Shown piece by piece: positions 14,601 through 51,418 of a stretch of 64,000 bases of DNA. A program made the position numbers and the translations under genes. The stretch covers positions 8,923,586-8,987,585 of the forward strand of contig NC_134528.1 in assembly GCF_027942865.1 (NCBI RefSeq), read 5' to 3'. The first letter of the stretch is position 1, and every line of letters starts with the position of its first letter. The stretch is from Odontesthes bonariensis. Its lineage: Eukaryota; Chordata; Actinopteri; Atheriniformes; Atherinopsidae. The notes below the pieces were generated by a model. The model ran no database searches and was not told where the DNA came from. It saw nothing but the letters and a program-made list of their open reading frames with translations.

Positions 14601-17600
14601 TTTATGGGTACATGTGCATGTGGAGTCCATACAAAAAAGAAGACAATGCTCCTAAATTGCCTGCAACACCTAATTACAGACCATGATTTTACTGTTTCGC
14701 TTTTCCACAGCAACATGTCACACATTTGCATAATTCCTGCCTGGTGGCTAATTTGGAGCCCATAAGATAAAAAAGGAGAGCATGCCACCCTTTTTGACCA
14801 ATCAGCTGACTGAATAAATAATTTGCCTCATTATGGTTTCAAAGTACTTCAGGAAGATCATTAAAAATAAAATGCCTGAAAGGACGTAAGCTGGATAAAG
14901 TTAGCATTTACAACATTTATAATATCGACTGTTTAAATTAGAATGATGTTATTTTACCTTCAAAAGCAACTTTAAGGTAAAATAACTTGATGACTTTGAA
15001 ACCACCTGTCCGAAACTCAAAGATAGTCTTTTTATTTGTTTATCTAATTATTTCTTAATTGTATAACACACACAAAAAAAAACTTGTTAAAGTGTATATG
15101 AAATTCATCATTTATCTTCAATGTTAGGAAGACGTGTGCATGCATCTCACCAACTACTCCATCAACAAGAACAGCGAGAACTTTGTCCGCGATGAGGATG
15201 TCGGCAGCAAGCGGTAACTAAAAACAGTCCCAAATGTCTTTTGTGTTGTAAAAGACATATTATCGTATTTTGTCGCAATGTTGTTGGGATTTCTGTCCCC
15301 AAGAAAGTTGTCCAGCCTCACCAAACACCTGGAGTCCATCAGCTGCAACACAGAGAAGATGTGGAAAGACATTGAGGACATCATCATAAAGACCCTGATC
15401 TCCGCTCACCCCATCCTCAAGCATAATTACCACACGTGTTTCCCCAACCACACCACCGGTAGCGCCTGCTTCGAGATCCTGGGCTTCGACGTGCTGCTGG
15501 ATCACCGACTCAAACCCTGGGTGCTGGAGGTGGGAGATCAGACACAGCAGTTAGATATCAACCTTAAACTCCCTTAGTTAATCAATCTTGTCTCATGACA
15601 TTATATTACAGTTTAATTCATCCATATTTAACTTATTGTAATATTGCTTGGGGTGCCTCATATTCTTCTTACCTTAACCAGATACTCCTAATTCAGAAAA
15701 GATTCTTAAGAATGACTTCAAACTCTACAAATCAGGCGCCATCTGCACCTTTATTCAGCAAATTCAGACTCTTGTCAATTTTTTCTATTAATATGCTTCA
15801 AACATCTCTGTTTATGTTTAAATTCATTCATTGCAAACAAGACATTCCAAGCACTTTTCATAAGTTCTTCTCGTTATCATCATATATTCAGTCATATTCA
15901 GTAAGAGGTCAGAACAACTTTCTTTTACCTCTTTGTAGAACTTCCAGACATAAATGTTTTATTAAATTCCATGGTCCCCAGCTCTGGAACTCCCTAGACA
16001 GAGGTCTCAAGCTTTTATCCCCCTACAAAATGTTTAAGTCTAGTTTGGTGAGGTATCTTCTGTCCATGCAAAATTTCAATTGAAATGAAATTGTGATTTT
16101 GTTCTCTCTCTCTCTCTGTATTTTCCTTGTCTCCTCCTCTTTTCTGCCTTTTCTTTTCTTTTATTGGTTGATTTAATTTAGTGTTTTGTTTGGGGGGGGG
16201 GGGGGGGGGGGGGGGTATATAAGCCCTTGGGCTTCCTTTCCTCTCGTGCACATTCTTTTGGCCTTTGTATTAATAAATGTATTTTCTTGTTTTATCATTG
16301 TGCATATTTAAATTAAAAAAAACAAAAAAAACAAACGCATTATTTATCCAAATTCAGGTGGGTCTTTAAATGCAAATTTAAAGCCTCGTCCTCAGACTGG
16401 AGTACAAGTTTGGAGGGTTTAAGGAGTTAAAATGTTAAAGTCAAGCAGTATATTTATGTTTTTTTGTGTGTGCTCAGGTGAACCACTCCCCCAGTTTTAC
16501 TACAGACTCGCAGTTGGACCGCGAGGTGAAGGATGCGCTGCTGTACGACACTCTGGTTCTAATTAACCTGGGAGCCTGCGACCGTCGCAAGATCACCAAA
16601 GAAGAGAGACGCAGGGTGAAGGACAGGCTGCAGCAAAACCGCTCCAGGGAGGCCAGGTAGCTTTATGACGTGTGAAGCTTTTCCTCCAAAGCCACACACG
16701 CATATTTACGTAAGCTTGCAGCAACCGTACAGCTTGTAGATTTCTGTCCTTGTGTTTTACCTCCAGGTCAGAGGAGCTGCGTCAGTGCCTGGCAGCCACG
16801 GTGGAGCAGATGGAGAAGTACGAGGCCAAACACCTGGGAGGCTTCAAGAGGATCTACCCCAGAGAAGGAGGGGAGAAGTACGACAAGTACTTCAAACACA
16901 GCAGCTCACTCTTCCAGGAGACTGCGGCGTCTAAGGCCAGAGAGGAGTGTGCCAGGTATCTGCAGCACACTGTCAGCATACCGGCTGTAGCACCGAGTCC
17001 AGTCCAGTAAAGAGCAGAGGCTGCTAGTGAATCACACAGAGATCTTTTTCTTATCCACACACCACATTAGACCTCATGAGTCTGTCCAGTAAACAGTGAA
17101 AAAGTCTTGAAAAAAAACAGGTCAGTAGTAAAATCATGAAAAGGAGGAGAGGCTTCTGCACGGGACAAATTATTTTATGTTCTCTAGATGCTCACCGCAG
17201 AACAGTTGGGATTTTAAAGGTTTTTCCATTTTTACTTGATTCTAGCTGCTCAACAGTTCTGGCATTTCAGAATTTCCCATCCCTGTTTTTCTCATTTTCC
17301 CATTAATTTTCTGTGGGTGGCGGTTACAGGCCGGTCAGTGTAACATCTGGTTTGTTTTACAGAATGTGACTGACATGACTCTAGAACAAGGAGGAATTAT
17401 TGTGTTAGCCCGACCAAAAGCCGGACTTTTTAGATGAACGTAAACAAAGAATTTGGGGATCAAATCACTCCTGCATGTGCACGCTCAACTAAACTCAGAT
17501 GGGCATTCTGCAAAAAAAAAGTCAAATGTACGTGTATATTAATGCAGCAACCATTATGATCTCCCTCAGAGAAAGAATGTCTTGAACATTTTATTTGACA

Positions 17601-26897: not shown

Positions 26898-26904
26898 TAT
26901 AAAA
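26898..26904 (+). promoter_or_regulatory. hoxb6b: TATA box of hoxb6b
   Basis: TATAAAA 50 bases upstream of the hoxb6b ATG, in GGACTATAAAAGACAAC. If it is used at the standard distance of about 30 bases, the 5' UTR would be only about 25 bases long. Confidence 0.5.
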
Positions 26905-26953
26905 GACAACAAATCATATTCCTCCGGAGTATATACACCCCGTTGTCCACCCA

Positions 26954-28577
<1,624 letters not shown>

Positions 28578-36183: not shown

Positions 36184-36275
36184 CTGTCACTTATATGCAC
36201 CCTGTAGATCCAAATTTGTGTAAATACAGCAGCCGCCACAAATTTGAATCATTGGGAGTATGTAGGTGATGACAC
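36184..36275 (+). ncRNA. mir10: mir-10 family microRNA precursor with two paired base changes
   Basis: The 5' arm (36198-36220) matches vertebrate miR-10a except for C instead of T at mature base 1 and A instead of G at base 15; the seed ACCCTGT is intact. The 3' arm (36239-36260) corresponds to the miR-10 star strand. The arms pair over most of their length around an 18-base loop (36221-36238), and flanks CTGTCACTTATATG / CATACTTACATC-type continue the stem. Both mature-strand changes are matched by changes in the star strand that keep base pairing (C-G for T-A, A-T for G-C). Position between hoxb5b and hoxb3b is the canonical place of mir-10, upstream of the now missing hoxb4b. It targets Hox mRNAs in other vertebrates. 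Confidence 0.88.
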
Positions 36276-39614: not shown

Positions 39615-40484
39615 TAAAGCTGCATGCCTCCAGACTTATTCCCTCTGTCTCTCTGACTGCTCTCCTCTCCTCGTCTTTAAAAACTACAGCTGAATAATTT
39701 CGATCGCTTTAATTTCGGAGGAAGAGTCCATTTAATTTTATTGCGATACTGGCTGAAAAAAAAGGAACAAAAAGAAAGACAAAGATGGATAAAGCAGCTG
39801 CAGCTGCGTTGCACAATGGACTTCTGTACAATTTTGCATTGGATTGATGGGTTTTTCAGTAGGTTGTGATACAACATTTAATTTTTCCCATACAAACAGG
39901 GCTATCCATTAGCTGAATAAAGGCTGTTATGTATGAACAGAAATAGGCCTAATGTAATTTCAGGAGACACCACAGAAAACACAATGAAGCACTGTTTCTT
40001 TTTATATCTACATCTAATTTGTTGTCTGATAACAATATATTTACATTTGTTAGGCCAGTTTTAGTTCTTAATTCATCTAATCCCCTTTGAGACAAAAAAA
40101 CACAACAACAACAAACAAACAATTTCCAGAAAAATAGCCTCGTTTTTCGACCTAAAATCGTCATATGTTGTGTGTAAAAGAAATTGAGCCCCGCTGGGAG
40201 GTGAATCACTGCAGCTTTTTCAGGATTATCCTCACGTTGGTGTTTTCCACCGAGCTCTTCATTTTGCCTCTCTTGCATGGAGAGGCTTGCTATTCATGTC
40301 AGAATACTATTGAGTTGATAAGATGGATCATTTAGTCTCCTCCCTTATTCTGTGTCCGTCTTTTTTCCTCCCTGGATCCTCTCAGGCCAGAAGCCTTCGG
40401 CTCTCTGGAAACCCGCCATGTGACATTTGGCTACCAGCGCTCAGCCAGAAGGTCAAAGGGGGGCCCGGTGCACATTTCGTGGAA

Positions 40485-42185
40485 ATGCAGAAACCCAGCG
40501 CCGCACACAACATCCACCACCACCGCGACTTCTTCAGCGAGTCTCTGGATGGCGTCTCTGGCTTTGGGTGCTCCCCACAAGCACCGACACACCAGCAGGG
40601 AGTGGAGACGTTTGAGCGCACGTTTCCCCGGAGGTCAAAACCACAAAGCACCAAGTTTCCAATGAGCAGAAACATTTTCCCCTGGATGAAAGACTCCAGA
40701 CACTCAAATCAGAAACCCAGCAGGAAAATCACAGGTCTGTATGACATGAAAAAAAAAAAAAAAAAAATCAGACGTTTTTAAACTAAACTATTTCCATTTG
40801 GCCTCTCAGTTTAAAAAGATGATTTCAGACTTTAATGTTCCTCCTTGCAGGTTCAAAAGGTCATCTGGCTTTTAATGGGGCTGCAGTCAGGCATGAGAGG
40901 CAGGAGGCCTTCAGGTTTTAGGCTCACAGGCATTTAAGGATGTATTTTAATATCAATTAGCATGTATCTTTTTTTTTTAAAAGAAAGCCTGAGAGAAATT
41001 AAATTAGAAACAACAGAAAGGGCCGACTGAAGCTGAAACAGACTGAGCCTTTTATGCTCCAGACTATAGGACCATAAAACAGAAACATGAAGGATCCCTT
41101 TCACCAAACCCAAACTAGTAATTAAAGGATTTGTATTTAATCGTGATTTTAATCCAAAATGTATAAAGATAAAAACATAATTTAAGTTATAAAAACAACC
41201 GTGTTGAAATAGTAGCAAATCGAGCCGTATTTGTCTTGATTTACTACATCTGAAACACTAACAGCGACATAAAGGGGAGATAAACACAGTTAAATTTCAT
41301 ACATGTCAGCTCACTAATCTTTCAACAACAGCCAGCTTCTTACACACAGGTTTCAGCCCAAACCTTTTGATTTATTCTTTTGTTGTTGTATTATTGTGGT
41401 TTTCTGTGCCTTTTGATCCAGTTTATTCAATAATTATTTGTTGGGCTTTTTTAGTGCTCCTCTTTTACGCAGCAACATGTAAGATAACGCGAACAGAAGC
41501 AATTAAAAAGACTGGAAACTGGCAGTAAACGCAGCGGAGGCTCACTGGAAGAAAGATGTAATGTATCTGTTCGACACCTCATTTCCCGACATTTGTCTCC
41601 GCAGATTGCAACGAGAAGTGCCCAAGCGCGACCCCGGCCTCGAAGCGCACGCGCACCGCATACACGAGCGCGCAACTGGTGGAGCTGGAGAAGGAGTTCC
41701 ACTTTAGCCGCTACCTGTGCAGGCCGCGGCGGGAGGAGATGGCCAGCCTGCTCAACCTCAACGAGAGGCAGATTAAGATCTGGTTCCAGAACCGGAGGAT
41801 GAAGCAGAAGAAGGACCAAAGAGTGCAAGGCCTCACCAACATAACCAGCACCACCTCCTCCTGCTCTCCCCCGTCCTCCCCCTCCGCCTCGGGCAGCCCC
41901 ACTCTGGCAAGTCTGGGTTATGTCCATCTGGGCGGTGATTACCAGTCGGCCTCCCCTCCGCTCAAGTCCCGACAACAACAGCAGCAGTCCCAGCCGGCGT
42001 GCCGTGCACAATACTCCAAATGTCCAGCTCCGGGCTTCAAGCACGGCCCCCAGTTTGATGTGCAGTACAACACTTCTCACACAACAAACCCAAACCAGGG
42101 AGGCGACGATCTGAGCGGGTCGTACTTCTCACAGAGCTGCTCTCAGGACAGAATCATGCAAGCTCCAAAACTGACTCATCTGTAG
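40485..42185 (+). CDS. hoxb3b: Hoxb3b homeodomain transcription factor, shortened and divergent
   Basis: Exon 1 40485-40734, intron 40735-41604, exon 2 41605-42185; 276 residues against roughly 400-430 in other Hox3 proteins. The start is chosen because MQK is the usual Hox3 opening and because a pyrimidine-rich acceptor (TCTCAG at 40385) places 40386-40484 in the leader; the frame is open upstream, so a longer start cannot be excluded. The hexapeptide IFPWMK is at 64-69. The homeodomain is at 96-155 ([20 protein letters not shown]...[18 protein letters not shown], helix [15 protein letters not shown]). The C-terminus [11 protein letters not shown] is the conserved Hox3 ending. Changes from the Hox3 consensus: N23S, V32E, N36S, T41N and Y56Q. 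The Hox3 N-terminal and central regions are reduced. Next gene downstream is hoxb1b; hoxb2b is missing. Confidence 0.92.
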
Positions 42186-43140
42186 CAAAGCCAAGGCGCG
42201 TGTGTCTCGTTGCATTCTCTATTTATTTATTGGGCTAAATCTAAATTAGCGACGTTTTTATTTATTTGTATTTGACATATTTATTATTTTTTTTGTGGGT
42301 TTTATCCTCGCACACGCCCTCAAACATGGAGAAATGTTACAATTCAGACCTGAAAGCTTAAATGAACACATTAACTATTATTTAGGCTGCAATTTGATTC
42401 AAACAGGCTCGTGATCCAGATTTACACCCCATTTAAGAGACAAAACGTTGTCGAAAATGGCAAATCTTACTCTTTTTTCTTCTTCTTCTGTTTTTTGGTT
42501 AAAGCTTAATTACCACTTGAGGACTATAGCCACATTAACTCTTACTTAATTACAGGGCGCGTTTTAACGAGTGTGGACGGTTTACGTTATAGTGTCAGTG
42601 TTGTTAATTTACAAGCAGGAGGGGAAAATAAGATGTAGAGAAAGGCCTATCTGGCTGTTAAACGTCTTTGTTCTTTTATGGGCAAAATGGGCCAAACAAG
42701 CTGTCAGTCTTTAAAAAGAGGCATGATGGATCACTGAATTCACTGCGCTGACTATTTCTGCAACATTGTCTGATTCAGAGCCTGTGCGCACCACTCATGC
42801 TGTCCAAAGGCTGGGGAAATATTTCAGTAAGAAGCCAATCCGGACATGGGCGAAAGTGATGTTTAGAGACACAATTGGAAATTAATTGAATGTTTTTCAA
42901 CCCTCGTCGGCAAAGAAGCTAAATTATTCAACGATGCCAAAGCTTTAACAGCATGCAGGCCGTCAATTTTACACATTTAAATGGAAATATTAAAAGTATT
43001 ATAATTGTAAGACTTAAAGACCTGCAGTGGCAGTCAGATTTATTCTTATTATCATTATTATTATTATTTTCTATCTTTTTATTTGTCAGTGGAGCTCCTC
43101 TAACACTGCAGCCTGCATATGTCTCCTGATGTTTGTGTTC
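42186..43140. other. hoxb3b 3' UTR and hoxb3b-hoxb1b spacer
   Basis: A T-rich 3' UTR follows the hoxb3b stop; no canonical AATAAA was noted. No trace of hoxb2b coding sequence was seen. A short ATT run lies at about 43048-43070. Confidence 0.4.
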
Positions 43141-44518: not shown

Positions 44519-44813
44519 ACAATGACTCTTAAAAAATGACTGTGGAGGCCTGAGCAGCTTTCCACAGACAAGTTGCACCATTCCAGAAAAGAAAAAAAAG
44601 TGAATAATGCTCGTGGTCTTGTGAAGTATACAGGGTATGTCTGTGTCTGCTGATGTGCATCGACTTCTGAATTGGATGTTGAGAAAACTTTCGAAAAGGT
44701 GTTTTCATCCATTCTTGTATTTCTATGTTTAGTTTTTGCACCTCCTAAAATGTCATTGTTTGCACTATTTATTTACAGGGTATTTTCCAACAATTGTTCA
44801 GATAATTTAGCTT

Positions 44814-44819
44814 AATAAA
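44814..44819 (+). terminator. hoxb1b: polyadenylation signal AATAAA of hoxb1b
   Basis: AATAAA in TTAGCTTAATAAAGTTTATC, about 295 bases after the stop codon. Confidence 0.75.

Positions 44820-49360: not shown

Positions 49361-49403
<43 letters not shown>
49360..49403. repeat. (GT)n microsatellite with one TTT interruption
   Basis: Forty-odd bases of GT repeat interrupted once by TTT in the middle. Confidence 0.95.
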
Positions 49404-49407
<4 letters not shown>

Positions 49408-51418
49408 AAGACAGGATGCACACTCAAACGCACACCATCCATGCCCTAAGGATCCTCCTGACTCTACTGGCGCTATCAGATCAGAGAGACCCGCTGTCCC
49501 TCCCCACACCGCAATGCAAATGAAAAGGAATGCGCTGATAAAAGGCCAGATCCTAGAGATGAGAGGCCAGAAGGAGGATTGAGGCAGCAAATGCTAAAGA
49601 GGGAGAGCCTCTTGGGGAGATGAGAGGTGGCAGAAGAGTCAGTGTTGGTAGTAGTGGGAGATCATAGCCATGCTCCCCCTCAGCGGCGTTTGATACAGGG
49701 CTTTTGTCGCTCTTTCAGTGGTGCATTGTTGGGTGGTGTAATCCCCGTCGGATTACAAAGGGCTTCCCTTTTCATATGGGGCTGACCCAGCAGGCAGGTG
49801 GCTGGGGCTCTGTGGAGCTGTCAAGGGGAGGGAACCTCTTTTCCAGGGGAGGGGACCCCAGTTCCTCTTACCTTCACAGGGGCTTTTTGCTGGGAGGCCA
49901 GTCAGGCGCAGGTCAACGTGGGGACAATGTTGACTTGGATTCAACTCAGCCTGACCCCGTGGCTTCCTGTAGGGGAAGTGACAGGGAAGGACACCATCAC
50001 GAGACTGCGTTCAACATGAAATATTAAAAAATACTTAGACTAGTTCAAATATTGCTGAAGGGAGAGAGGTGCTACTGCTGCATCTCTTTAAAATAAATGA
50101 TCATTTAGGAGGGAGATTGCAGCAGAAGGGTCATAACTTAATCTACAAGGAGAAATGTCTTCCAAATGTGCAAATGATTACAGTTTAGATGTGAATGAAA
50201 ATGTTAAATCTAAACATATTTCTGATCGAATATGCATACCAGTGAGGCTCTTGCCTAAAATCTAACACAAATTACACATCTTAAAAGTAAAAAGTGTATA
50301 ACATTCATCGAACAGTGCTTGATTGTATGCTGAGCAGTGTAAGACTACGCTTTGGTTATCTGATTGCTTTCCTTGTAGGATTTCAGTAATACAGGATCAA
50401 TAAGACGATAGCGTGGCGCAGCAGTATGTCTGTCAGCGCTGCTATACCACCACCTCTTCTGCACATGTCAATTGCGTGTGTAAAAGCCCAGTTCAGTTCA
50501 TCCCATTGCTGCTCACCCTCTACTGGTAATCAAAACCGTTCATCCACGCCCTGTCAAATATAGAGAGGGGCCAGTTTAGTGATGCTGCTTTCATGTGTCG
50601 TCTAAAACAACCTTGTTAGATTTTCCTGCTTAACTCTAACACTTGTGGAAGTGGTGAATTGAAACAGTTTGGATTGGATACTTTTAACTTTCAGATTTAT
50701 TTGCCACACTTTGCATAATTTTTTGTTTTATGGCTTAGCCAAAATGTCAACTGCATCCATGCTGATATTAGTAATTTATAGACATAAACACAACACAGAT
50801 TTATATTCTGGATTTTTGTTCTTATTTGTTGGAGTGGGTCAGTTACCCTGAAATGTAATCAAATACATAATGGCAGTTTTTATAATTAGTAACATAATGT
50901 TTTACAAATAATGTAATCCCATCAGATATTAATAGATTACATATAAGTCAAATAAAGTCACTCTAAATCAAACCAGCAAGCTAGTAACGTGTGTGTTTAT
51001 TTCAAATGTAATTATTTTAAAATAGAACTGACACTGTAATTTACTATTTCACATATTGCGGGATCTCGTGTAGAAGAAGGCAACATCTGCACAAAAATGT
51101 AATTTAAAAGATAAAAATAAAAATATTAATTGTTTCTTACCTTTATTATAAACATCATGTAAAACGTATGTAGCTCAAAAATAGCAGAAACTGAAATAAA
51201 CCTTATGATAAAAGTGAAAACTTTGGAATGCAATGTCTGCGCCCCATAAAACAGTCGCAGATAAAAGTAGCTTTTGTGAAATAAGATGAAAAAAAAAACT
51301 ACTTTTAAAATCAGTTACTTACTTAAGTGAATTGCTATATGGGAACTGTTTCAACTTACTCAAAGAAAAAGCTTTATTAGAGGACCAACGTCGGCAGCTG
51401 GCTGGCTTCTGGACCACC

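Follow-up and report, generated by a model that had tools for sequence, protein, structure and literature searches.

The 64,000-nt window (the whole stretch of Odontesthes bonariensis DNA that was analysed) carries an ordinary miR-10a gene of a fish Hox cluster, slightly diverged, with two small changes in its mature arm that lie outside the target-recognising part. The locus is a hairpin of the mir-10 family, flanked by Hox genes, with an intact seed and paired changes in its stem, and two miR-10 sites lie behind a hoxb1b-like gene of the same cluster. In our preferred reading, to which we give a probability of about 0.78, the locus is mir-10a in a teleost HoxBb cluster from which hoxb4b has presumably been lost; it is probably still expressed and made into a miR-10-family microRNA, and it has undergone near-neutral drift within a folding constraint. 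Drosha and Dicer would free the 5p arm, and its unchanged seed ACCCUGU would repress mRNAs with ACAGGGU(A) sites, possibly including that of hoxb1b nearby, jointly with other miR-10 copies. Both mature-arm changes spare the seed and have a partner in the hairpin, so near-neutral drift under folding constraint is their most likely origin, rather than a new function. The hairpin comprises the following features.

36186..36270, + strand: mir-10a stem-loop (HoxBb copy), lower and middle stem, 36186-36220 paired with 36237-36270; fold -33.8 kcal/mol, z -5.45
36191..36266, + strand: match to the Rfam RF00104 mir-10 covariance model
36198..36220, + strand: mature miR-10a-5p arm, CACCCUGUAGAUCCAAAUUUGUG, placed by homology; 2 of 23 bases unlike the printed human arm
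36239..36260, + strand: star (3p) arm, CAAAUUUGAAUCAUUGGGAGUA, placed by homology; 6 of 22 bases unlike the printed human arm

The Rfam match covers the full model (1-74) with 55 bits (cut-off 47.5, E 5.9e-11) and is the single match above any cut-off in the whole window. A permissive Rfam search of 22000-50000 returned six matches, namely the mir-10 hairpin and five below their own cut-offs. Positions 36184-36275 fold at -33.8 kcal/mol, against -17.9 (sd 2.92) for shuffled sequences, and none of 200 shuffles was equally stable. With this z-score and the sole above-cut-off Rfam match in 64 kb, the hairpin is more than chance. Raw fold energy was discarded as proof, 157 of the 12,782 92-nt segments (both strands, step 10) reaching -33.8 kcal/mol or better. 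As regards membership of RF00104, the locus folds into a stable hairpin whose 5' arm carries the mature sequence (the use of that arm being assigned by homology), has a covariance score above the curated cut-off, and keeps the miR-10 seed ACCCUGU at bases 2-8; at mature base 1 it has C (36198) and not U. A 5' U at this base is usual for vertebrate miR-10 and does not define the family. The lower stem counts 13 bp. The antisense strand of the hairpin (36190-36265, - strand) is also mir-10-like and folds at -26.1 kcal/mol; its Rfam score of 29.5 bits is under the cut-off of 47.5, and it was rejected as a mir-10.

Four homeodomain genes, all on the + strand, were located at 26.9-28.6, 29.8-31.2, 40.3-42.2 and 43.4-44.5 kb by motifs, reading frames and a Pfam Homeodomain match each.

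26903..28577, + strand: hoxb6b-like gene, YPWM frame and homeodomain frame; Homeodomain 80.8 bits
29809..31158, + strand: hoxb5b-like gene; Homeodomain 83 bits
40314..42185, + strand: hoxb3b-like gene; Homeodomain 78.7 bits
43385..44518, + strand: hoxb1b-like gene, reading frames; Homeodomain 79.9 bits

The paralogue names hoxb6b, hoxb5b, hoxb3b and hoxb1b are our assumption from sequence hallmarks, gene order and the cichlid gene set cited below, Pfam giving Homeodomain only. The first coding frame of the hoxb3b-like gene (40314-40781) looks short and diverged ahead of its FPWM motif. With the names so assigned, the hairpin lies between the hoxb5b-like and hoxb3b-like genes, which is also the location of teleost hoxbb mir10a. 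This placement between hoxb5b and hoxb3b is given in PMC5168715, and the cichlid (A. burtoni) HoxBb gene set in PMC2080641 matches the four Hox genes of the window. In addition, Pfam assigned a SKICH domain to a frame at 4.5 kb (- strand) and a tubulin-tyrosine-ligase domain to one at 15.2 kb (+ strand), in agreement with ndp52 and TTLL6, which PMC2080641 names as neighbours. Four other frames in the same Pfam search had no match. The gene content points to a percomorph as the likely source. Neither a motif search nor tblastn with the hoxb5b-like homeodomain revealed a further candidate homeodomain for hoxb4b, the latter yielding, besides the four homeodomains, three weak matches of short length (E 1.2 or more). 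Beside the ttll6-like frame, a 171-aa open frame (15568-16083), without a Pfam match at E 0.001, is presumably similar to the last part of a LINE reverse transcriptase. Overall, the mir-10 hairpin in a HoxBb-type cluster put forward in a preliminary description is borne out by the Rfam score and the gene order, and the RNA folding that it suggested as a check gave a stable stem. The locus resembles teleost hoxbb mir10a (mir10-Bb) in place, seed and hairpin, the published hoxbb copies being compared by place.

As human reference, we used the miR-10a mature and star arms printed in PMC8499475. The window shares 21 of 23 mature bases with this human/mouse miR-10a and differs only at bases 1 (T>C) and 15 (G>A), the seed (bases 2-8) being unchanged. 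The star arm shares 16 of 22 bases, with six changes: 36245 C>T, 36247 T>A, 36251 T>A, 36252 A>T, 36253 G>T and 36258 A>G. The two mature-arm changes are as follows.

36198, + strand: base 1, C for T, pairing with G36258 (T-A of the printed human arms to C-G)
36212, + strand: base 15, A for G, pairing with T36245 (G-C of the printed human arms to A-T); both human bases lie in CpG

The preliminary description had read both substitutions, the intact seed and the two replaced pairs correctly: C and A stand at 36198 and 36212, and its human states agree with the printed arms. It had also seen the partner changes, A to G and C to T, but had placed them near 36259 and 36247, whereas they lie at 36258 and 36245. 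Position 36247 is a separate star-arm change, unpaired in the fold; with 36251, 36252 and 36253, it is one of four star-arm changes beyond those described earlier. At 36251 and 36252, mismatches of the printed human arms give way to pairs, though in a fold fitted to the window sequence. The probe sequence given in PMC2148072 shows that zebrafish miR-10a differs from the window at mature bases 1 and 15, where it has T1 and G15; C1 and A15 are therefore likely the derived states. The asymmetry between the arms (2 of 23 mature versus 6 of 22 star bases) was rejected as proof of selection, since it is not significant (Fisher p 0.13). A search for the mature and star sequences in the main texts of one open-access library found neither, one milkweed match being unrelated. 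No sequence of this locus was obtained from PMC4166920, PMC5974277, PMC4132760 or PMC3286462. A pattern scan of viral and prokaryote sequence collections returned no fish relatives and one unrelated match in a viral contig (L001), which is coding-like by eye and has no Rfam match above cut-off.

Both changed pairs are predicted with high probability, C36198-G36258 and A36212-T36245 reaching 0.998 each in five of five fold contexts of 92 to 361 nt. When the human precursor, in the form assumed here, is folded, the predicted partner of base 1 is 3p base 20 (p 0.94) and that of base 15 is 3p base 7 (p 1.00). The Rfam mir-10 consensus structure leaves base 1 unpaired. Setting the base-1 pair to its human state gave -29.8 kcal/mol for base 1 alone, -29.8 for the partner alone and -32.4 for both, versus -33.8 for the native hairpin; the human state thus costs 4.0 kcal/mol on either side alone and 1.4 on both. 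At the base-15 pair, G15 alone gave -33.5 kcal/mol (a cost of 0.3, the wobble being kept), the opposite C alone -29.6 (a cost of 4.2) and both -35.6, versus the same native value. Because the hairpin with all four human bases reaches -34.2 kcal/mol versus -33.8 for the native one, the derived state is predicted to be paired but no more stable than the human state, which is slightly favoured. As an isolated duplex, the two arms of the window bind more weakly than the printed human arms (-14.0 versus -20.5 kcal/mol), and the base-1 pair is unformed in both; as the flanking stem is required for this pair, full hairpins were used to assess it.

Compared with the printed human arms, both mature changes are partnered in the hairpin (2 of 2) by the star changes at 36258 and 36245. 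The earlier claim that these paired changes argue for continued selection stands as to the pairing, but the step to selection is weakened by the energetics above, by the unpaired base 1 of the Rfam structure and by the CpG context. We computed the chance that two random mature-arm changes would both be compensated by six random star-arm changes. It is 0.007-0.014 when CpG is ignored, 0.018 if CpG transitions are fivefold faster, and 0.05-0.09 if they are tenfold faster (0.053 or 0.087 by transition rate), both rate factors being assumptions. The human base-15 pair sits in facing CpGs (CCGAA facing TTCGTA in the printed arms), which makes CpG transitions of both G15>A and the C>T opposite it; a G-U wobble is possible as an intermediate between them. 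Structural co-evolution, in which selection on the stem would have held both pairs, is a serious candidate to which we give somewhat less than even odds: the unweighted probability and the 4.0 kcal/mol cost of either single human base at the base-1 pair speak for it, whereas the comparison is pairwise and post hoc, with two pairs and one distant relative (human), and loses strength as the CpG rate rises. The matched changes are real, and their weight as evidence of selection is modest and suggestive only. More generally, facing CpGs make a compensatory change less costly than it seems.

The candidate targets of the preferred mir-10a reading include two 8-mer sites behind the hoxb1b-like gene.

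44630..44637, + strand: miR-10 8-mer site ACAGGGTA, 112 nt past the hoxb1b-like ORF end
44775..44782, + strand: second miR-10 8-mer site ACAGGGTA, 257 nt past the hoxb1b-like ORF end

These are the only two occurrences of ACAGGGTA in the window on either strand; both are sense and precede AATAAA at 44814. A count of two is ordinary (mean 1.33 over both strands of shuffled windows). The joint position of the sites, both within 264 nt of the hoxb1b-like stop, is not ordinary: when the 457 nt behind this stop were dinucleotide-shuffled 20,000 times, 46 shuffles had at least one site and 0 had two. The sites could be open to any miR-10 copy. According to PMC2148072, zebrafish HoxB1b has one putative miR-10 site 125 nt past the ORF and is strongly upregulated in miR-10 morphants; miR-10 overexpression gave no downregulation, and the authors leave directness open. 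Pairing with site 1 is predicted at -14.5 kcal/mol for the window arm versus -18.8 for human miR-10a, the two arms differing at bases 1 and 15, and pairing with site 2 at -17.1 versus -18.6 kcal/mol. At site 2, the sole structural difference is the base-1 pair, so that base 15 is addressed by site 1 only. Argonaute does not use the base-1 pair with a target. Adaptation of the two changes to the hoxb1b sites was dismissed, as the window arm is predicted to pair more weakly than the human one at both.

Among miR-10 sequences, a C at the first base is unusual, and Argonaute disfavours a 5' C. The preliminary description had called this base unexpected; the C is indeed present, but it has a parallel in miR-99b, which we take to be a relative of miR-10. 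As printed in PMC8499475, miR-99b-5p starts CACCC, a precedent for a 5' C as in the window; it is without miR-10's U at base 6, its seed being ACCCGUA versus ACCCUGU. The C might have moved the main 5' end to A36199, in which case the dominant product would have the fly-like seed CCCUGUA; we consider this unlikely. According to PMC3919606, an isomiR with this seed, starting one base later, makes up 21.8% of human and 28.6% of mouse miR-10a-5p, and the major form of fly miR-10 starts at that later base. The C at base 1 could raise the share of the A2-start form. Relative to base 1, the 5' flank in the window reads CU at -14/-13 and UG at -13/-12. In the human precursor, in the form assumed above, the flank has UG at the same -13/-12 spacing, and this equality predicts an unmoved Drosha cut, with processing that would still begin at base 1. 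However, counted from A36199, the UG sits at -14/-13, the usual place of the flank UG motif, so the motif does not settle the 5' end. The 7-mer of the shifted seed, TACAGGG, lies in both hoxb1b sites and once more at 42551-42557, 366 nt past the hoxb3b-like ORF end, where it is a 7-mer for the one-base-shifted form and an offset match for the canonical one. This last site may be due to chance, TACAGGG occurring 10 times in the window (both strands), once in the hairpin itself. It seems rather improbable that, through the base-1 change, this miR-10a copy has come to start mainly at A2 with seed CCCUGUA and has so returned, in a vertebrate, to a fly-like 5' end; in that case, hoxb1b would be kept as a target and hoxb3b added.

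Some decay of the locus is possible, given an arm duplex weaker than that of the printed human arms. A locus decaying outright, with hoxb4b gone, other miR-10 copies present, drift to loss and paired changes that are mostly CpG accidents, would agree with the tenfold-CpG null and with the six star-arm changes relative to the printed arms. In addition, the HoxBb mir10a locus is dispensable in some percomorphs, since it is reported as absent in Gulf pipefish (PMC5168715) and as not found in medaka (PMC2080641). miR-10 is reported in six eel Hox clusters (PMC3286462). We nevertheless give outright decay a low probability: the seed and 21 of 23 printed mature bases are kept, the Rfam score exceeds its cut-off, the 13-bp lower stem persists, and the changes at 36251 and 36252 create pairs, albeit in a fold fitted to the window sequence.

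As the mir-10a of a HoxBb cluster, the locus is already known, and some percomorphs are without a copy in the papers cited; taken alone, the mir-10a of the window is an ordinary gene. A copy that combines an intact seed with a changed first base and paired changes in the stem would serve well as an intermediate in studying whether duplicated Hox microRNAs fade through drift or through a 5'-end shift.

Elsewhere in the window, sub-threshold mir-297 and mir-466 matches fall at 49367-49441. This segment is likely a TG-rich repeat rather than microRNAs, because an overlapping frame reads CVCVCLCVCVCV.
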